DNA of 64,000 nt, taken from positions 124,001 to 188,000 of the forward strand of contig JAFIEZ010000010.1 in NCBI GenBank assembly GCA_020832235.1, in the 5' to 3' direction. Position numbers and translations under genes: made by a program. The stretch comes from Bacteroidota bacterium. GTDB taxonomy: Bacteria > Bacteroidota > Rhodothermia > Balneolales > HLUCCA01. Below are positions 30,296-44,172 of the stretch, piece after piece. Positions within the stretch are counted from its first letter, which is position 1; every line of letters starts with the position of its first letter. The notes beneath the pieces were generated by a model. The model made no database searches and was not told where the DNA came from. It saw only the letters and a program-made list of their open reading frames with translations.

Positions 30296-33200
30296 ATGAG
30301 GCATGTGCACGTTCTATTAATGTTAGTTTTCCTATCCGGATACTCCGTAGCACAGTCACAATCTGAAATGACCGGCTTCCCGGAAAGAACAGCATCATTT
30401 GTAGTAACTCCAGATCAGAATCAGATACAACTCGACATCCTCACGTTGTCTAGCACAATTCTGATAATGCACGAGGGTATCATGCTATCTTCTGAGTATT
30501 GGAGCTTCAATCGCAACACGGGTGTTTTAACCATTCACTGGCCTGCCCAATGGTCCCCCTTTCCGCGAGAATTACAGGTTAAGTGGCGCTTCAGACCTAT
30601 TTCTATACCCCGGACGCTTCAACTCGACGAAGCACTTGCTGCTGACACATTATTAGAGAATGTCTTTGTCTCTCCTACACAAATGCAGCCCCGGGTCGAT
30701 TCTTTTGCTTCAACAAATCTGTCTGGGTCGGGCAGTATAACAAGAGGGGTCATCGTTGGAAGTAACCGCGACCTGGGTATAGAAAGCGGACTTCGTTTTG
30801 ACCTTACCGGATTCATAACCGACGACGTTTACATTACAGCCTCAATAACCGATCAGAATACATTTATTCAACCGGATGGCACCACTCAGAACCTCAGAGA
30901 GTTTGATCAGGTTTTTATCCGCTTGCAATCACCCCGAGTACAAGCACAATTTGGTGATATTGACGCGCAGTTTCAGTCGAGCAGTATCGCAAGGTTTGGC
31001 AGAAGGCTACAAGGAGCACAGGCTAGCTATGACCTTCGAAAAAAAGAACACGGCACCACAACAGCAGCTCTTGCAGTGATACGAGGAACATTCCGTACGG
31101 TAGAACTCACCGGGAGAGACGGAATACAAGGACCATACAGACTTACCAATACAGCTAATGATCCCTTTATCGTAGTTGTTGCCGGAACAGAACGAGTGTA
31201 TCTGGATGGAAGGTTGCTCGACCGGGGTGATGAAAACGACTATGTAATTGACTACAGCATTGGCGAGATTTATTTCACCAATCAACGAATCATACGAAAT
31301 ACCCATCGCATACGTGTTGAGTACCAGTATTTGAGCTCTGGTTTTACCCGAACGTTATCAGCGGCAGAATCAGATTATCATAACCTGCTGGGTGGCAGAA
31401 TGTCGGTTGGTGCAACTTTTATCAGAGAAGCCGACAATATTTCTTTAGACGATTTTACCGGCCTTTCAGAGCAGGACCTGAATTTACTTAGAAATACAAT
31501 CCCTGGAGAAAACACCCTATTCACGAGCGGTGCCGACAGCGTGGGGTTTCGACCTGATTCGCCATTCGCTTTGTACGTAAGACGAGATACGTTGATTCAG
31601 AATGAAACTATAACTATTTACGAGTTTGATCCGGGTAATCCACAATCTGTATTCAGGGTTCAGTTTACTAGAGTCGGGGAGGGGCAAGGGAGTTATCGGA
31701 GGTCATTACAGTCGGTTAGCGGTATTGTGTACGAATGGGTTGGTCCGGGCCAGGGTAGTTACGAGCCAGTACGCAGATTGCAGGCTCCCGAGCTCCGGCA
31801 GGTCTTATCTTTGAGAACATCCATACGGCCTGTTGATGGGTTATCGCTGGGTACTGAAGTGGCTTTAAGCACACAGGAGCAAAATCGATATGCCAGTGAT
31901 GCAGCACGGCATGCGCAAATGATCAGGTCTTTTGCACGTTGGGGAACCGGTACAGCGGGTGGGCAAGTGCTCAATCTTTGGTTGAATCACGAGTACAAAG
32001 CAGCCTCCTTTGTTTTCTTTGATCCGATTCGGGATGTGGAGTTTAACAGGAAATGGGATCTCTCTGATGGGTTACCCTCTTCAGAGCACTTATCGGAGGC
32101 TGGCGCCAAGTGGGAAGCCGGTCCTTCCAAATACCTGAGCTGGATAGTTCAGCATCTGGAGCGAACAGACAGGCGAGGATTCCGAAATGATGTAAACATG
32201 AATTGGGATTCTGATATCGGATCTGATGTAAGGCTTCATGCCGGATATTTAATCAGCGACAGAAATCAGTCCGGCCAGACGCGCTGGCAAAATATAGATG
32301 CTGAAACGGGTTGGGCGTTTAATGCAAATCAGAGTACAATCAGACCCTACTATCAAATTCATGGTGAACGTCGCGAAGAGAAAAATACGATGGATGAATT
32401 GCAACGCAATAGTTTTGGTCATCTGGATCACACCGTTGGTCTGCAATTTCAGCTTCGTAACGTAGCGACGGCAAGTGTGCAATACGGTCTGAGAAACGAT
32501 TATGAAGTCTTTTCAGATGAATTGAAGTTGAGTTCCAGAACTGTTGCTCCGGGAATTGAGATTCGTATATCGCCAGCTGACGGAATACAGTCACACAATA
32601 GAGTGGCCTATCAGGTACGTAAACCCACATCGCTATTCATTCAGGAGTTTGGAGCAGGTGAAACACGGGGTCTTGCCGTACGCTCCAATACAGATGCTCA
32701 ATTTTTGAATCGGGCTGTAGTCACATCAATTCTATATAATGTTGCCACGGAAAGTCGTTCTGTTTTACAGGAAACGTACCTTGAAGTCGGTCCAGAGTTC
32801 GGTCAGTATGTTTGGATTGATGTAAATGGCGATGGAATACCCCAGTTAGATGAGTTTTTCCCGGAACAAACGCCCGATGAAGGCACATTCATCCGGCAGC
32901 TGCTTCCTACAGAGGAACTGACTCCGGTTATTTCACTGCAGTTTCGCTGGAGGTCGGTGATCGACCCATATCGTATACATAGAGCATGGTTCACTCGCGG
33001 ACTTCGCTATAGTGGAACAATCGATATTCGGGAGCAAAGCGAAACTACATCACTTAAAGATATCTATCTGCTGCGACAGGAAACATTCCGGGGAGAGCAA
33101 ACCCTTTCGGGGCGAATAACCACTGATCAGCAATTGCAGTTATTCAGAAATAATCGCGATGTCAATATGACGATTCGATCAAGCAACTCTGTTTTAAAAA

Positions 33201-33757
33201 ACAGATTGGCGTCGGGGTCCGAAATGCAGAAGAATAGACTGTTAAATCTTTTTACAAGCTATAGGTTCACTCGGTACATTACGGCTCAAGTAGAAATTTC
33301 TGCTCAAAATCAGTTACTTACAAGTGATGGAATTGCATCCAGAAATTATGATATACAAACAACGCAAATTGAGCCTGGGGTACAGTATACTACTGCAGGT
33401 AACTTTAGAGTAGCGACATTTATAACTTTTCTGAATGGCATCGACTCAGATGTGGTAAACAGAGCTGAATTAAGGGGCTATAGTGTGCGTACAGAGGCTG
33501 CCGTACCAGTTTCACAGAATTTTTCTATATCATCAAATACGGCTTTTCGAAGCATGCAGGTAGGAGGATTGACGTCGGCAACCTCTGAATTTGTGCTAAC
33601 AAATGGTGCCGGTACTGGAGAGAGCTGGATATGGGGCATGCAGCTTTTATGGCGGGTTTCATCGCAGTTAAGGGCAACTGCACAGTACAACGGGCGCACG
33701 GTACAGGGGGGCAGATCTATACAAACGGCAAGGGTTACCGTATCGGCAAACTTTTAA
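30296..33757 (+). CDS. Large outer-membrane protein, SprA-reminiscent (function unknown)
   Basis: An 1153-residue protein with a clear signal peptide (MRHVHVLLMLVFLSGYSVAQS). The segment GSGSITRGVIVGSNRDLGIE, followed by DVYITASITDQNTFIQPDGT and LREFDQVFIRL, resembles a motif I associate with SprA and related Bacteroidota outer-membrane proteins. The remaining residues alternate in beta-barrel style and end in an aromatic-terminated strand (VTVSANF). WIDVNGDGIPQLDEFFP near residue 841 looks like a calcium-binding loop. At 1153 residues it is about half the length of the type 9 secretion translocon SprA, so it is not that protein. It lies upstream of, and on the same strand as, the ExbB/ExbD genes. 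The start follows the terminator by about 33 bases with no Shine-Dalgarno. Confidence 0.65.
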   Translation: MRHVHVLLMLVFLSGYSVAQSQSEMTGFPERTASFVVTPDQNQIQLDILTLSSTILIMHEGIMLSSEYWSFNRNTGVLTIHWPAQWSPFPRELQVKWRFRPISIPRTLQLDEALAADTLLENVFVSPTQMQPRVDSFASTNLSGSGSITRGVIVGSNRDLGIESGLRFDLTGFITDDVYITASITDQNTFIQPDGTTQNLREFDQVFIRLQSPRVQAQFGDIDAQFQSSSIARFGRRLQGAQASYDLRKKEHGTTTAALAVIRGTFRTVELTGRDGIQGPYRLTNTANDPFIVVVAGTERVYLDGRLLDRGDENDYVIDYSIGEIYFTNQRIIRNTHRIRVEYQYLSSGFTRTLSAAESDYHNLLGGRMSVGATFIREADNISLDDFTGLSEQDLNLLRNTIPGENTLFTSGADSVGFRPDSPFALYVRRDTLIQNETITIYEFDPGNPQSVFRVQFTRVGEGQGSYRRSLQSVSGIVYEWVGPGQGSYEPVRRLQAPELRQVLSLRTSIRPVDGLSLGTEVALSTQEQNRYASDAARHAQMIRSFARWGTGTAGGQVLNLWLNHEYKAASFVFFDPIRDVEFNRKWDLSDGLPSSEHLSEAGAKWEAGPSKYLSWIVQHLERTDRRGFRNDVNMNWDSDIGSDVRLHAGYLISDRNQSGQTRWQNIDAETGWAFNANQSTIRPYYQIHGERREEKNTMDELQRNSFGHLDHTVGLQFQLRNVATASVQYGLRNDYEVFSDELKLSSRTVAPGIEIRISPADGIQSHNRVAYQVRKPTSLFIQEFGAGETRGLAVRSNTDAQFLNRAVVTSILYNVATESRSVLQETYLEVGPEFGQYVWIDVNGDGIPQLDEFFPEQTPDEGTFIRQLLPTEELTPVISLQFRWRSVIDPYRIHRAWFTRGLRYSGTIDIREQSETTSLKDIYLLRQETFRGEQTLSGRITTDQQLQLFRNNRDVNMTIRSSNSVLKNRLASGSEMQKNRLLNLFTSYRFTRYITAQVEISAQNQLLTSDGIASRNYDIQTTQIEPGVQYTTAGNFRVATFITFLNGIDSDVVNRAELRGYSVRTEAAVPVSQNFSISSNTAFRSMQVGGLTSATSEFVLTNGAGTGESWIWGMQLLWRVSSQLRATAQYNGRTVQGGRSIQTARVTVSANF

Positions 33758-33869: not shown

Positions 33870-33898
33870 TTGACATTTAAGCGGAAATCATCTATCAT
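33870..33898 (+). promoter_or_regulatory. exbB operon promoter (TTGACA-N17-TATCAT)
   Basis: A perfect TTGACA, exactly 17 bases and TATCAT followed by TTTG. It is the best promoter match in the window and lies about 55 bases upstream of the ExbB ATG, which also has a GGAG five bases before it. Confidence 0.68.
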
Positions 33899-33951: not shown

Positions 33952-34698
33952 ATGTCCTTGTCATTTGGCACCCTGCTTATGCAAGTTGGATTGGAAGAAG
34001 GTCCTTTTAACGTACTTGTATACTACTTCAACGAAGGTGGCACATTCATGTGGCCGGTATTGATCTGTGTGATCATCGGGCTGGCAATATTTCTGGAGCG
34101 CGTTATAACGCTCAATCGTGCCGATATCAACACTCGTAAATTTATTCTGGACGTTAAAGACGCCCTCCAGACTGGCGGTATCCCTGCTGCAGAAGAGCTG
34201 TGTTCTCAAACACGCGGTCCTGTAGCCTCTGTATTTCAGGCAGGTCTTCTTCGGGCTGATGAAGGTATTGAAGCAGCTGAAAAAGCAATTACAGCCTATG
34301 GTTCAATTGAAATGAGCTTTCTTGAGCGTGGCGTAGTATGGATTTCGTTATTTATCGCACTGGCACCACTGTTCGGGTTTACCGGAACGGTAGTAGGTAT
34401 GATTATTGCCTTTGACGCTATTGAAGCGGCCGGTGATATTTCGCCCTCACTTGTAGCAGGTGGTATTAAAGTTGCTCTTCTTACAACGGTTGCCGGTCTT
34501 CTGGGTGCCATTGTACTGCAAATTGGTTACAACTACTGTATTTCCAAGATTGACAGGCTGGTAGTTGAGATGGAAGAAAGCTCCATTGTACTTATTGATT
34601 CCATTGCACTGATGAGCCAAGGCAAGAAGATACTTACTGCTGAAGAGCAGGCAAAAGTAGATTCTGTAAAAACTGACGAAAGCGATAGTAAAGAATAA
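33952..34698 (+). CDS. ExbB/TolQ/MotA-family proton channel protein
   Basis: A 248-residue inner-membrane motor subunit. The first helix is in TFMWPVLICVIIGLAIFLERVITL (about residues 36-56). The two long helices of the MotA/TolQ/ExbB domain are near 120-150 and 163-190, with the conserved LAPLFGFTGTVVGMIIAFDAI and GGIKVALLTTVAGLLGAIVLQI. ExbB pentamers with ExbD convert the proton gradient into mechanical work for outer-membrane processes. It is the first gene of a four-gene operon with a small membrane protein and two ExbD proteins. No TonB or TolB gene is present in the operon, so whether the unit serves TonB, Tol or another process is open. Confidence 0.93.
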   Translation: MSLSFGTLLMQVGLEEGPFNVLVYYFNEGGTFMWPVLICVIIGLAIFLERVITLNRADINTRKFILDVKDALQTGGIPAAEELCSQTRGPVASVFQAGLLRADEGIEAAEKAITAYGSIEMSFLERGVVWISLFIALAPLFGFTGTVVGMIIAFDAIEAAGDISPSLVAGGIKVALLTTVAGLLGAIVLQIGYNYCISKIDRLVVEMEESSIVLIDSIALMSQGKKILTAEEQAKVDSVKTDESDSKE

Positions 34699-34715
34699 TT
34701 TAACCCTCTCAAAAC

Positions 34716-34988
34716 ATGAGTATACAAGAAATTGCACTTACTGGTGCCCTCACTCTTCTTGGCCTCGCCTTGCTTTTGATAGCGGTTTTTGGATTAAAAA
34801 ATATCTTTACCGGAAAGCATGAAGTGACCAAGATTCTGGTGGTACTTGCTCCATTTGTAGTATTCGGTATTACATTTGGTGTTACCGGCCAGACAACTGA
34901 GTCTGCGCTTACCACTCTACTAGTACTTATTGGAGCCATGGTTCTGATGATATTCTTCGGTGGTGTTCGCAGTTCATTTAAATTTTAA
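34716..34988 (+). CDS. Small membrane protein between ExbB and ExbD, unknown family
   Basis: A 90-residue protein that I do not recognise. It has three hydrophobic segments at about residues 7-26 (LTGALTLLGLALLLIAVFGL), 40-57 (ILVVLAPFVVFGITFG) and 65-83 (ALTTLLVLIGAMVLMIFFGG), joined by short polar loops, with a basic C terminus (RSSFKF). It lies 17 bases after exbB and 22 bases before the first exbD, in the same operon. Its position suggests an accessory subunit of the ExbB-ExbD motor, an inference from context only. No Shine-Dalgarno is evident. Confidence 0.75.
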   Translation: MSIQEIALTGALTLLGLALLLIAVFGLKNIFTGKHEVTKILVVLAPFVVFGITFGVTGQTTESALTTLLVLIGAMVLMIFFGGVRSSFKF

Positions 34989-35010
34989 ATTAACCCGATA
35001 AGGACTACCA

Positions 35011-35571
35011 ATGTTTGGTAAGAAAAAAGTTAGACGTGGGGCCGAGATACCATCATCATCGTTGGCCGATATCGCGTTTCTCTTGCTGGTGTTCTTTCTG
35101 GTTGTAACTACGATTGATGTAGATACCGGAATTGGATTGGTACTGCCTCCACCACCGGATGATACAACGCCTCCGCCTCCCATACGTGAGCGCAATCTCA
35201 TGAAGATCCTGGTTAACAATCAGGGGATGGTTCTGATCAATGGTCAACCAACGGCTGTAAATGACGTTCGTGAACGAGTGGTTAACTTTGTAGATAATGC
35301 AAACAGAGCCAATGATCCTGATATGTCCGTTTCGCCTCAGGCTGCTATTGTATCAATACAAACAGCGCGTCAAACCCCTTATGAAGTATATATCAATATG
35401 CTGGATGAAGTGAGGGGGGCTTATGCAGAGCTCAGAGATGCATCGAGCATGGCGATGTTTGGCATGAGGTACGAAAGGTATCGTGCTACACTAGCAAGTC
35501 CCGCAGATGATGTAATTCGTCAAATGTATCCGATGAACGTTTCGATCGCGGAACCAGACCCGGGAAATTAG
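35011..35571 (+). CDS. ExbD/TolR-family protein, first copy
   Basis: A 186-residue single-pass inner-membrane protein. The helix LADIAFLLLVFFLVVTT (about residues 17-35) carries the essential proton-relay aspartate. A proline-rich linker (VLPPPPDDTTPPPPIRE) and a periplasmic ExbD/TolR domain with ILVNNQGMVLINGQ follow. It is longer than a typical ExbD (about 140), with an extra C-terminal segment of about 50 residues (YAELRDASSMAMFGMRYERY). AAGGA stands six bases before the ATG. A second exbD follows after 15 bases, so the motor may contain an ExbD heterodimer. Confidence 0.92.
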   Translation: MFGKKKVRRGAEIPSSSLADIAFLLLVFFLVVTTIDVDTGIGLVLPPPPDDTTPPPPIRERNLMKILVNNQGMVLINGQPTAVNDVRERVVNFVDNANRANDPDMSVSPQAAIVSIQTARQTPYEVYINMLDEVRGAYAELRDASSMAMFGMRYERYRATLASPADDVIRQMYPMNVSIAEPDPGN

Positions 35572-35586
35572 ATTAAAGAGTAACCT

Positions 35587-36033
35587 ATGTCAAAGTTCCA
35601 GAAAAAAAATGCCAAGGCTAAACAGGAAGTGCCTACAACAGCGATGCCCGACATCGTTTTTATGCTCCTGATTTTCTTCATGGTAACTACCGTACTTCGT
35701 GAAGTTACACTTCAGGTGCGTGTAGAGCTTACTCGTGCTGAGAATATTGAGAAAATTGAGCAAAAGCGCCTGGTTAGTTACATTTATATTGGCCCAAGAA
35801 TAATCGGCAATAATATGTACGGTGAAACTAGGGTTCAGATTGATGACGCACTCATCGACGAACTGGTTTTCATCCGCAGAATTATGTACGATAAGTTGCT
35901 TGAACAACCAAGACTTATCGTTTCCCTTCGTGTAGACAGGGAGTCGGAAATGGGAATCGTAACCGACGTACAGCAGGAGTTAAGACAAGCAGGTACACTG
36001 CAAATCAACTACTCCACCAGACGTCTGCAATAA
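35587..36033 (+). CDS. ExbD/TolR-family protein, second copy
   Basis: A 148-residue ExbD/TolR protein with the membrane helix TTAMPDIVFMLLIFFMVTTV (aspartate intact) after a lysine-rich N terminus, and a periplasmic domain with VSLRVDRESEMGIVTDVQQELRQAG, the TolR/ExbD C-terminal signature. It is diverged from the first copy and of normal length. It is the last gene of the operon and is followed by a terminator. Confidence 0.93.
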   Translation: MSKFQKKNAKAKQEVPTTAMPDIVFMLLIFFMVTTVLREVTLQVRVELTRAENIEKIEQKRLVSYIYIGPRIIGNNMYGETRVQIDDALIDELVFIRRIMYDKLLEQPRLIVSLRVDRESEMGIVTDVQQELRQAGTLQINYSTRRLQ

Positions 36034-36054: not shown

Positions 36055-36091
36055 AAAGGTCATCTGCTTTTTGCAGGTGACCTTTTTTTAT
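36055..36091 (+). terminator. exbB-exbD-exbD operon terminator
   Basis: AAAGGTCATCTGC, a TTTTT loop and GCAGGTGACCTTT with one wobble, followed by a run of T. It is a strong intrinsic terminator. Confidence 0.93.
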
Positions 36092-39510: not shown

Positions 39511-40410
39511 ATGATTACTACAAATCTGAAACGCATTTACGACCCAACATTCGTTGTTACACCAGAGTACAGAGCGTCACTGCCTGATCTGCAGAATGGA
39601 CCTGCGTCTTTAATCGAGGGAGAAAATGTACCAATACAACAGGTTGGTATCTCAAACTTTAAGCTTCCGCTTCGTTATCCTACACGGGAAGGAAAAGAGC
39701 TAACCCTCGAGACATCCGTTGACGGCTACGTTAGCTTAGACGCAGGTAAGAAGGGTATAAATATGAGCCGTATAATGCGCTCATTTTATAAGTTTCAGGA
39801 TGAGCTATTTCATCAGGATGTGCTGGAATATGTTCTTCATATGTATCGTGATGACCTCAAGGCAAAAGATGCATATGTTAATTTGAACATCAATTATCCT
39901 GTATTAACGAAGAGCTTGCGTAGTGATCTGGCGGGATATCAGTACTATACGGTAACCCACGAAGGTGTTATGAATGAGAAAGGTGTAATGAGGAGATTCA
40001 TGCACTTCGAATTTGTATATAGCTCGGCGTGCCCTTGCTCATACGAGCTTGCCGAACACGCACGCGAAACACGAGAAGTTGCTACCATACCACATAGCCA
40101 GCGAAGTGTAGCGTATATTACTGTTGAATTGAATGAAGCCATGTGGGTAGAAGACATGGTAGATTTGTGCAGAGATGCTGTAAAAACAGAGACACAGGTC
40201 ATGGTAAAACGTGAAGATGAGCAGGCGTTTGCCGAACTAAACGGAGCATATCAGAAGTTCGTAGAAGACGCTGCGAGGTTGTTCTCTTTGAAACTGAACG
40301 GCCACTCAGCTGTAAAAGACTTCGTCGTACGATGTGTGCATATGGAAAGCCTGCACAGCCACGATGCCGTTTCGCGAATTTGCAAGGGAGTCCCTGGCGG
40401 CTTGCGTTGA
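39511..40410 (+). CDS. folE2: GTP cyclohydrolase FolE2
   Basis: A 299-residue type IB GTP cyclohydrolase that makes dihydroneopterin triphosphate from GTP for folate or related pterins. The metal-binding cysteine region YSSACPCSYELAEHARE near residue 170 and HSQRSVAYITVEL, SLHSHDAVSRICKG at the C terminus are the FolE2 signatures. FolE2 tolerates various metals and, in many bacteria, replaces zinc-dependent FolE. No zinc-responsive operator was recognised upstream. It is convergent with kgd, with a perfect shared hairpin between them. Confidence 0.94.
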   Translation: MITTNLKRIYDPTFVVTPEYRASLPDLQNGPASLIEGENVPIQQVGISNFKLPLRYPTREGKELTLETSVDGYVSLDAGKKGINMSRIMRSFYKFQDELFHQDVLEYVLHMYRDDLKAKDAYVNLNINYPVLTKSLRSDLAGYQYYTVTHEGVMNEKGVMRRFMHFEFVYSSACPCSYELAEHARETREVATIPHSQRSVAYITVELNEAMWVEDMVDLCRDAVKTETQVMVKREDEQAFAELNGAYQKFVEDAARLFSLKLNGHSAVKDFVVRCVHMESLHSHDAVSRICKGVPGGLR

Positions 40411-40437
40411 GAGCATGATCAATCGCGTATGATAGTA

Positions 40438-40473
40438 TAAAGGGTTGCTTAACTAGTGTTAAGCAACCCTTTA
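40438..40473. terminator. Bidirectional terminator between folE2 and kgd
   Basis: AAAGGGTTGCTTAAC-TAGT-GTTAAGCAACCCTTT is a perfect 15-base inverted repeat with a four-base loop, flanked by A/T-rich sequence on both sides. It serves both convergent genes. Confidence 0.94.
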
Positions 40474-40500
40474 TCATTTTCAGCTCGTGTCTTAACTGCC

Positions 40501-43500
40501 TTATCTGTCTTTGGTCATCATAGCTCTGGTAACCAGACGTTCTTGTTCGGCAGCGTGTATTTTAGCGGAACCCGTAGCCGGAGAAGCAGCAGCAACCCGA
40601 CCCGCATAACTTATGGCCTGTTCACCATTGCTTTGCTCCATAAGGCGAGGCCATACGAACGACCATCCCCCCATATTTTTAGGCTCTTCCTGACACCAAA
40701 CAATATCTGTTACATGGTCGTATTGATCCATTACTTCCCGTATATCTGCATTCGGGAAAGGATAAAACTGTTCGAGGCGTACGATAGCAACATCATCAAT
40801 TTCTTCATCCTGCTTAAATTTCAACAGGTCGTAATACACCTTGCCTGAACAAAATACTACGCGCTTAACTGATTCTACATTATTTACGGTGTTATCATCA
40901 ACTACCGGCCTGAAAGATCCTTCAGCGAGTTCTTCTGCGTTAGACATGGCCATCGGGTGACGCAACAGACTTTTTGGAGTGGCAACAACCAGTGGTTTTT
41001 TCTTGTCTTGCAATGCTTGACGTCTAAGTAGATGAAAATACTGCGATGGAGTGGTACAGTTTACCACCTGCATGTTGTCTTCTGCACAAAGTTGCAAATA
41101 CCGTTCAAGTCTGCAAGAGGAGTGCTCCGGCCCCTGGCCTTCATAGCCGTGTGGGAGAAGCATTACAACAGAGGAAGTTTGACCCCACTTAGCATCACTG
41201 CTGGAAATGAATTGGTCAATAATGATCTGAGCACCGTTGCTGAAATCACCGAACTGAGCCTCCCAGATTACCAGTGAATCAGGACGCAGCGCACTATAAC
41301 CAAACTCAAACCCTAGTACAGCAAACTCGCTGAGATAGGAATTGTATACCATGTAGCGGCCTTGCTCATCCTGTATATTATTTAGTGGCACAAAGCGCTC
41401 TAAAGACTCAGTTCCATGAAGTACAGAATGGCGGTGAGAGAATGTCCCACGTTCAACATCCTGTCCAGAAAGACGGATATCCTTGCCTTCTGTGAGCAAC
41501 GTGCCAAACGCCAAAGCTTCTGCAAACCCCCACTCAATTTTTCGTTCGTTCTTTGCAACTACTTCGTTTCTTTTCGCCAGAATACGCAGCAGTTTAGGAT
41601 TAGCATCAAAGTCGGCTGGTACTGTATTCAGTCGTGTTGCAACATGCTGAAGCAACTCCATGTCAACGGTGGTATCAACAGGTGAAACGCGGTCTTCCTG
41701 CAGCGTATCTTTACGCTCAATATGCTCTTCTTTTATTTCAAAGGCTGGCTCTGACTTTGCATCGTTAAAGGCTTTTTCCAGGATAGCGTCAAATTCATCG
41801 AAGATGGCATCAACTTCTTCTCTGGACAGCTCTCCTTTGCGAATTAATTCACGACTGTATATTTCGCGCACCGATGGATGGTCATTAATCTCTTTGTACA
41901 ACCCAGGCTGCGTAAATGCGGGTTCATCTCCCTCATTATGGCCATGCTTTCTGTAACATACCAGATCAATAACAACGTCTTTACCGAACGTTTGACGATA
42001 ATCCAGAGCAATCTTGATTGCGTAGGCACAAGCTTCCGGATCGTCTCCGTTCACATGAAATACCGGTGCCAGAATCATTTTGGCCAAATCAGAAGCATAT
42101 TGTGTTGACCTGCCGTCTTTTGGCAAGGTGGTGAAGCCAATTTGATTATTGATAATGATGTGGATAGTACCGCCTGTTTTAAAGCCATCGAGCTGCGACA
42201 TATTCAGTGTTTCCGCAACAACTCCCTGACCGGCAAATGCAGCATCACCGTGAATCAGCAATGGAATTACAGAAAGCTTCTTATCTTCATCAAGCTGGTC
42301 CTGATAGGCTCTTGCAGCACCTTCAACAACAGGGTTTACGGCTTCAAGATGACTTGGATTAGGCAGCAGATCCAGCTTGATTTCATTACCGTCGGGTCCG
42401 ACATGTTTGCCGGTAGTCCCCAGGTGATATTTCACATCTCCGGATCCGTGAAAAGTAGATGGATCGATATTGCCATCGAATTCGGCAAATATTTTTGAGT
42501 AGGATTTGCCCAGGGTATTAACCAGAACATTCAGTCTGCCGCGATGCGCCATTCCAAAGAAAACTTCCTCCACACCATAGCTTCCTGCATGATTCAGCAT
42601 TACGTCTAGCATAGGTATTACAGATTCAGCACCTTCGAGAGAAAACCGCTTATGCCCGACGTATTTCTTATGCAAGAACTCTTCAAATGCCGAAGCATGA
42701 TTGAGTTTACGCAGAATACTTACTTTGTCTTCTTTATTAAAGCGAGGTGTATTGGTATTCGATTCCATCTGTTCCCGGAGCCACTCACGTTCCGGGGTAT
42801 TTTGAACGTATAAAAACTCGGCGCCAATTCTTCTGCAATACGTATCGCGCAATAAGCTTATAATCTCTCTGAGTGGGGCAATTTCTTTACCTCCTAGCCC
42901 ACCACAATAGAAATCTCTGTCTAAATCCCACATCGAAAGGCCGAAATACTCGAGTTCGAGTTCTTCGTTACGTTTTGCTGATTCACGCAGTGGATTCAGG
43001 TCGGCAATGCTGTGCCCGCGAGACCGGTATGCCTGTATCAACTGGATTACGGCAATAGCTTTTTTATTAGCTTCCAGACCGCTCTCTCCACCATTCAGGA
43101 ATCCGGCGTAATTATCGGTTCCATAGGCTATAGGTCTGAACGGCACTTCAAGGTCTGCAAATATCTGATCGTAGAAGTCTTCCTCTCCAATCAACAGAGA
43201 GTGTACTTTTGCAAGAAAACCGCCAGACTCAGCACCTTGAATAATTCGGTGATCGTAGGTGCAGGTCATGGTCATAACCTTGCTGATACCCAGGTGGTTG
43301 AGTACTTCCTGCGACATAGCCTGAAACTCAGCGGGATAGTTCATTGCTCCGGTGGCGATGATTGCTCCTTGTCCTCTCATGAGGCGTGGCATGGAAGACA
43401 CCGTACCGATGGTTCCAGGATTTGTAAGAGATATGGTGGTGTTTTCAAAATCGCTCATTTCGAGTTTCCCGCCGCGAGCTCTACTTATGAGATCGTCGAA

Positions 43501-44172
43501 CGTAGCAACAAACTCAGAAAAGGTCATTTGGTCGGCGGCCTTAATGTTGGGTACCATCAGAGATCTAGATCCGTTTCTGCCTGGCAAATCAATAGCAACC
43601 CCAAAGTTCACCTGACCTGGATCAACACTGTATGTTTTTCCATCACGCTCTTCGTAGAAGCAATTGATTGATGGGAATGATTTTAATGCCTGAATGATTG
43701 CCCAGCCAATAAGGTGGGTAAACGTGACTTTTTTGCCCGATCGTTGCTCAAGATATCGGTTCAGCAGCGTACGGTCTTCCCACAGCATTTTAACCGGTAT
43801 AACACGTAATGAGGTAGCCGTTGGGATTTCCAGGCTGATCTCCATATTCTCTGCAATTTTACTTGCAGCTCCCTTCAGCATATTTCGGGTACCACTCTGC
43901 TCGGGTTTTTCAGCTGTAGCTTTTTCCGGTTTGGCCGCCGGTTTACTGGAAGCTGCCGGGCTGGAATCGCTTTTTTTCGAAACCGACGAAACAGGCTTCT
44001 CTTCTTTTACTTCAGACTGTTTTTTAGCAGATGATGTGGGTTCCCCCGATTCCATTTCCTCGAAATATTGTCGCCAGTGATTTGGAACTGAATCGGGATC
44101 TTGCGTGAACTGGTTGTAAAGTTCTTCAACAAGAGCAGTATTCGGACCGAATATTTCTTCTAAATTTTTCAA
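40501..44172 (-). CDS. kgd: Fused 2-oxoglutarate dehydrogenase E2-E1 (Kgd/OdhA type)
   Basis: A 1223-residue TCA-cycle enzyme fusing an E2 succinyltransferase catalytic domain to a thiamine-diphosphate E1. Residues 1-45 are the E1 N-terminal arm (GPNTALVEELYNQF); 50-95 are a Pro/Ala/Lys/Ser-rich linker. The E2 core (about 100-330) ends in TMTCTYDHRIIQGAESGGFL, holding the catalytic His. The E1 part has MAHRGRLNVLVNTLGK, SHLEAVNPVVEG, IHGDAAFAGQGVVAETLNMS and HIIINNQIGFTT. There is no lipoyl domain, so acyl transfer must rely on another lipoylated E2, as in Actinobacteria. The start appears to be TTG at 44172. It is divergent from pepF across the largest gap in the window (268 bases). Confidence 0.95.
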   Translation of the reverse strand: MKNLEEIFGPNTALVEELYNQFTQDPDSVPNHWRQYFEEMESGEPTSSAKKQSEVKEEKPVSSVSKKSDSSPAASSKPAAKPEKATAEKPEQSGTRNMLKGAASKIAENMEISLEIPTATSLRVIPVKMLWEDRTLLNRYLEQRSGKKVTFTHLIGWAIIQALKSFPSINCFYEERDGKTYSVDPGQVNFGVAIDLPGRNGSRSLMVPNIKAADQMTFSEFVATFDDLISRARGGKLEMSDFENTTISLTNPGTIGTVSSMPRLMRGQGAIIATGAMNYPAEFQAMSQEVLNHLGISKVMTMTCTYDHRIIQGAESGGFLAKVHSLLIGEEDFYDQIFADLEVPFRPIAYGTDNYAGFLNGGESGLEANKKAIAVIQLIQAYRSRGHSIADLNPLRESAKRNEELELEYFGLSMWDLDRDFYCGGLGGKEIAPLREIISLLRDTYCRRIGAEFLYVQNTPEREWLREQMESNTNTPRFNKEDKVSILRKLNHASAFEEFLHKKYVGHKRFSLEGAESVIPMLDVMLNHAGSYGVEEVFFGMAHRGRLNVLVNTLGKSYSKIFAEFDGNIDPSTFHGSGDVKYHLGTTGKHVGPDGNEIKLDLLPNPSHLEAVNPVVEGAARAYQDQLDEDKKLSVIPLLIHGDAAFAGQGVVAETLNMSQLDGFKTGGTIHIIINNQIGFTTLPKDGRSTQYASDLAKMILAPVFHVNGDDPEACAYAIKIALDYRQTFGKDVVIDLVCYRKHGHNEGDEPAFTQPGLYKEINDHPSVREIYSRELIRKGELSREEVDAIFDEFDAILEKAFNDAKSEPAFEIKEEHIERKDTLQEDRVSPVDTTVDMELLQHVATRLNTVPADFDANPKLLRILAKRNEVVAKNERKIEWGFAEALAFGTLLTEGKDIRLSGQDVERGTFSHRHSVLHGTESLERFVPLNNIQDEQGRYMVYNSYLSEFAVLGFEFGYSALRPDSLVIWEAQFGDFSNGAQIIIDQFISSSDAKWGQTSSVVMLLPHGYEGQGPEHSSCRLERYLQLCAEDNMQVVNCTTPSQYFHLLRRQALQDKKKPLVVATPKSLLRHPMAMSNAEELAEGSFRPVVDDNTVNNVESVKRVVFCSGKVYYDLLKFKQDEEIDDVAIVRLEQFYPFPNADIREVMDQYDHVTDIVWCQEEPKNMGGWSFVWPRLMEQSNGEQAISYAGRVAAASPATGSAKIHAAEQERLVTRAMMTKDR

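Follow-up and report, generated by a model that had tools for sequence, protein, structure and literature searches.

A predicted four-gene ExbB-ExbD-type motor operon of Bacteroidota with a conserved small membrane protein and candidate TonB partners elsewhere in the genome

For their supply of glycans and iron Bacteroidota depend on TonB-dependent import, and to our knowledge the motors behind this import have been described from proteobacterial ExbBD. The 64,000-nucleotide stretch of Bacteroidota DNA analysed here (henceforth referred to as the window; nearest named relative, Bacteroidetes bacterium HLUCCA01) contains an operon in which exbB is followed by a gene for a 90-residue membrane protein (henceforth referred to as X) and two exbD genes, and no tonB, tolA or tolB adjoins it in the window. 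What kind of motor could these four genes build, what does X contribute to it and which process would it drive? We consider it reasonably likely that they encode one ion-driven motor of the 5:2 type, probably with an ExbD1:ExbD2 pair, which serves TonB proteins encoded elsewhere in the genome and in which X is an accessory inner-membrane subunit. If this is true, the 5:2 motor could no longer be regarded as a fixed two-protein design, since this phylum-level version would combine two different ExbDs and a changed ion path with an additional conserved subunit; the motor would also be a natural system for testing an asymmetric axle and would assign a motor to orphan TonBs.

Layout of the operon and its two ExbD proteins

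The features of the locus, in window positions, are:
33870-33898, + strand: sigma-70-like promoter, TTGACA-17-TATCAT (by 11/12 consensus match only)
33952-34698, + strand: exbB (248 aa; PF01618, E=1e-24; model of the ExbB part resembles TolQ/ExbB structures)
34716-34988, + strand: X (90 aa), three-helix inner-membrane protein of no known family (by conservation, linkage, purifying selection and predicted topology)
35011-35571, + strand: exbD1 (186 aa; PF02472, 1e-17; AF2 pLDDT 85; Foldseek match to ExbD 8pek)
35587-36033, + strand: exbD2 (148 aa), ordinary-length ExbD (PF02472, E=8e-12; Asp22)
36055-36085, + strand: intrinsic terminator at the end of the four-gene unit (13-bp stem, then T-run)

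Spacers of 17, 22 and 15 nt separate exbB from X, X from exbD1 and exbD1 from exbD2, respectively, and with the promoter match upstream and the strong terminator downstream the four genes are predicted to form one transcription unit. The first-pass annotation had described a four-gene unit of ExbB, a 90-residue protein and two ExbDs behind the best promoter in the window; the reading frames lie on the + strand exactly where it had placed them, and the promoter site was the sole one to score 11/12 among the 60 kb of the window scanned (positions 40,001-44,000 excluded). The genes 3' of exbD2 are thiL and ftsH. Compared with the relative at locus L004, ExbB was 98% identical, ExbD2 97% and X 88%, against 78% for thiL and 47% for the 1153-aa protein encoded just upstream, and ExbB and ExbD2 thus set the motor apart from these neighbours as under unusually strong constraint.

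The upstream protein (30296-33757, + strand) gave a partial, weak match to the type IX secretion (T9SS) translocon protein SprA (TIGR04189, residues 294-379, E=3e-6); it evolves fast and keeps its place ahead of the operon in some of the order's families (L071 and L073) but not in L072. Gene neighbours vary between families, whereas the exbB-X-exbD1-exbD2 block is constant. At three loci that are Flavobacteriaceae-like (such lineage labels of our numbered families are presumed from gene order), namely L085, L086 and L118, exbD2 is followed by an outer-membrane-barrel-like gene, which we take to be PorT-like, and at L085 and L086 exbB is preceded by tatD-like and asparaginase-like genes. A link to type IX secretion through this barrel was dropped, since other families have different neighbours.

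ExbD1 has one transmembrane (TM) helix, a Pro-rich linker and the ExbD periplasmic fold (Foldseek to 8pek, E=2e-5; AF2 pLDDT 85), and ExbD2 was assigned to ExbD by Pfam only. The Pro-rich linker had been noted before, together with an ‘extra C-terminal segment’; the linker stood, but the segment proved to be a helical insertion (about residues 151-176) ahead of the final strand, which is conserved (177-180, within SIAEP). The two proteins are strongly different, the insertion occurring only in ExbD1, and both carry the membrane Asp (Asp20 in ExbD1, Asp22 in ExbD2) in 86/86 operons analysed. One TolQ-type gene with two TolR-type genes is an arrangement shared with the AglR-AglQ-AglS cluster of Myxococcus xanthus (PMC9389320, PMC3169522), which differs from the studied operon in being without X and in driving gliding through Glt proteins. 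By analogy with AglR and its partners AglQ/AglS, a mixed ExbD1/ExbD2 stator is possible; for AglRQS itself the choice between hetero- and homodimer was left open (PMC9389320). Alternatively, ExbD1 and ExbD2 could each pair with itself, giving two homodimeric motors that share ExbB but have separate outputs. The strong divergence of the two proteins and the one-sided insertion speak for such an arrangement, and the joint occurrence of both ExbDs, in one order, in all 86 operons (a set selected as complete) speaks against it, so that we hold it to be possible but doubtful.

ExbB and the ion path

The ExbB part of the AF2 model gave TM-scores (to target) of 0.6-0.77 against TolQ and ExbB structures, and the protein scored far below both NCBIfam equivalog cut-offs (59 of 221 bits for TolQ, 33 of 206 for ExbB). 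The operon resembles the E. coli ExbB-ExbD and TolQ-TolR 5:2 motors in its PF01618 and PF02472 folds, in the TM Asp of ExbD and in Thr146 and Thr179 of ExbB, and differs from them in the extra X, the two ExbDs, the replaced pore Glu, Lys173 and the lack of a linked tonB or tolA. The Glu of TM3 (Glu173 in TolQ, Glu176 in ExbB) is absent, its position being Val174 here (GIAEALIAT in TolQ versus GIKVALLTT in this ExbB); an E. coli ExbB sequence also entered this comparison, but it is the PDB sequence of TolQ that carries the contrast in Glu and Ala-Thr. Across the operons analysed, the Glu position was V, I or T in 77/77 that bear X, and Glu was kept in one of the nine without X. The preceding residue was Lys in all 77 and Ala or Ser in all nine; this association between Lys173 and X amounts to one phylogenetic event.

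Thr146, Thr178 and Thr179 are kept in ExbB and are the equivalents of T158, T185 and T186 of PomA, which are reported to be conserved in all sodium-driven stators (PMC10374538). The position of PomA A190, near one Na+ site of the PomAB stators, is Leu here, and the Thr triad also occurs in many Bacteroidota paralogues. Operons of the exbB-exbD-exbD-tonB type, described in Flavobacterium psychrophilum and Riemerella anatipestifer (PMC4446302), share with the studied operon a single ExbB with two ExbDs and a Bacteroidota origin. However, L106, the counterpart of those operons by gene order and protein sizes, has a linked tonB, keeps the Glu and is without X, and its ExbB is 28% identical to the studied one; judged by sequence, the motor is a distinct clade, apart from the published operons.

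Conservation, linkage and predicted structure of X

Of 129 genomes of the order 118 contained X, as did all 84 of good quality, and comparison with the nearest relative (L004) gave pN 0.08, pS 0.73 and a dN/dS of about 0.03, indicating purifying selection. X is a real, conserved gene, far beyond chance; conservation in relatives and codon constraint, on which the first-pass annotation had staked the small reading frame, were both found. In a phylum sample of 148 genomes drawn over Bacteroidota, 64 had this ExbB type, and X was found at the search threshold in 47 of them. In 47/47, which span many families, it lay directly behind exbB on the same strand, and none was found elsewhere. In 46 of these genomes the exbB and X matches stood apart, by a median of 63 nt, and in the remaining one they overlapped by 12 nt. 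At the same place, G088 (L118) encodes a divergent X-like protein that the profile missed and G430 (L135) a weak-scoring X-like protein; in Flavobacteriaceae-like loci X is 109-158 aa long. A large part of the phylum has thus retained X at its place amid the motor genes. Motors without X occur in families f11, f16 and f34, and X is therefore dispensable for the basic motor. In a tree of 86 concatenated ExbB, ExbD1 and ExbD2 sequences a single change parts X-bearing from X-less operons, which fits X having been gained or lost once.

The first-pass description of X as a three-helix protein outside known families was upheld: the X family had no Pfam or NCBIfam match, a profile search against the PDB gave no credible match, and searches of open-access papers for the operon or its relatives gave no description of X. 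In an AF2 model of the readthrough ExbB-X chain of L037 (36 rows; overall pTM 0.57), X was predicted to consist of three long helices with pLDDT mostly 71-88. This fusion fold was not taken as evidence of ExbB-X contact, its pTM being only 0.57. Loop 1 of X is basic (mean 3.1 K/R versus 0.65 D/E), loop 2 is weakly acidic and the C-terminus is basic, and because of this charge pattern the positive-inside rule predicts an N-out/C-in topology. Conserved features are G26, K/R28, G33-K34, P46, T67 and a C-terminal G-x-R-x-x-F. Since X is without a periplasmic domain, it cannot itself be the force transducer.

We favour X as a subunit because of its 47/47 adjacency to exbB, the constant gene block, the single gain or loss, purifying selection and the occurrence of Lys173 only with X. 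The new accessory subunit proposed at first pass is accordingly the best-supported reading on conservation and linkage, its physical association with the motor being the part that we infer. A different role, which we think unlikely, is that of a transient assembly or stability factor, a membrane chaperone for ExbB and ExbD made from the same mRNA and standing outside the working motor. The intercalated gene order and co-conservation are equally expected of such a factor, and X evolves faster (88% identity) than ExbB (98%) and ExbD2 (97%); on the other hand, the conserved loop, the basic C-terminal residues and the strict adjacency fit a subunit too.

TonB partners elsewhere in the genome and the proposed motor

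Six TonB_C domains were counted in the genome from which the window comes (G000), and two of them belong to orphan TonBs (C9:29058 and C13:239331), which combine a TM helix with a long Pro-rich linker and have no exbB or exbD adjoining. The earlier statement that tonB, tolA and tolB are missing thus holds for the operon but not, as regards tonB, for the genome. Receptor plug domains number 29 in this genome, and of its three MotA_ExbB proteins only those at C9 (the studied operon) and at C2 have ExbD alongside. The C2 ExbBD motor has its own TonB-like gene, and could serve the orphan TonBs as well. A frame of about 600 aa elsewhere in this genome (C15:97707-98333, L124) contains two tandem TonB C-terminal domains.

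For co-occurrence the query was the first 135 residues of the TonB at C9, with the TonB_C domain left out. This orphan-TonB family was matched in 61/148 genomes, namely in 59 of the 64 that bear the motor and, weakly, in two of the 84 that do not (Fisher p=1e-32, a value inflated because relatedness is ignored); five motor-bearing genomes had no match at threshold. The contrast was also seen inside families, with both motor and TonB family in one genome and neither in two (f13), or both in nine and neither in four (f16), and within the class, where f5 and f9 are without both. Distance from the query does not account for these family- and class-level contrasts, which together with the two orphans weaken the notion of a motor without TonB. 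In four genomes of the same class (G013, G034 and G131 in f5, G096 in f9) motor, X and TonB family are all absent, making them natural knock-outs. Right after the TM helix, members of the TonB family have Q-E, E, T-x-Q and PPPPP(R/K)PP(V/I)P(V/I)E in common, and no conserved His occurs in their helix; we infer that the region after the helix binds ExbD. The idea that X is an adaptor for TonBs without the SHLS motif was unsupported, the TonBs of X-less genomes also being without SHLS.

The Ton-motor reading is favoured because the TonB family co-occurs with the motor and because the genome has 29 plug domains but only two ExbBD motors. We accordingly propose that an ExbB pentamer would enclose a dimer of ExbD TM helices, probably one ExbD1 and one ExbD2, with X most likely packed against ExbB as a conserved accessory subunit. 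The dimer would be turned by ions flowing past the aspartates of ExbD and the threonines of ExbB, the periplasmic ExbD domains would hand the movement to TonBs of this distinct Bacteroidota family, and the two orphans would then energise TonB-dependent outer-membrane receptors. In a stronger form, to which we give little credence, X would be a constitutive subunit around ExbB, the ExbD1:ExbD2 axle would be obligate, the pore charge would be rewired, with Glu gone, Lys173 acquired along with X, a Thr triad of the sodium type and a possibly changed coupling ion, and the TonB class encoded elsewhere would be dedicated to the motor.

Somewhat less probable still is that the motor drives a non-TonB envelope process (Tol-like outer-membrane maintenance, surface transport or gliding), TonB co-occurrence reflecting ancestry. 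Such a process would suit an operon without tonB, the near-invariance of ExbB and ExbD2 next to thiL, the barrel gene downstream in Flavobacteriaceae-like loci and the SprA-like protein upstream in the window. Against it, motor and TonB family are jointly present or absent within families and the flanking genes differ between families. At the loci examined, none of the Tol-Pal genes tolA, tolB and pal was identified next to the operon. That X is an unrelated small membrane protein merely on the same transcript, as its absence from f11, f16 and f34 motors might suggest, is very improbable given its unbroken adjacency to exbB across very deep divergence and the fact that none was found elsewhere.

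In the X-less family f11, the gene after exbD2 (L079 5685-6674 and L081 5685-6596) looks secreted. At L079 its product has a TonB C-terminal domain (TIGR01352, E=5e-15) and may be a client linked to this type of motor, and some 3-5 kb ahead of the motor operon there is a further pair of ExbD-like and ExbB-like genes (L079 11545-13426, G001).
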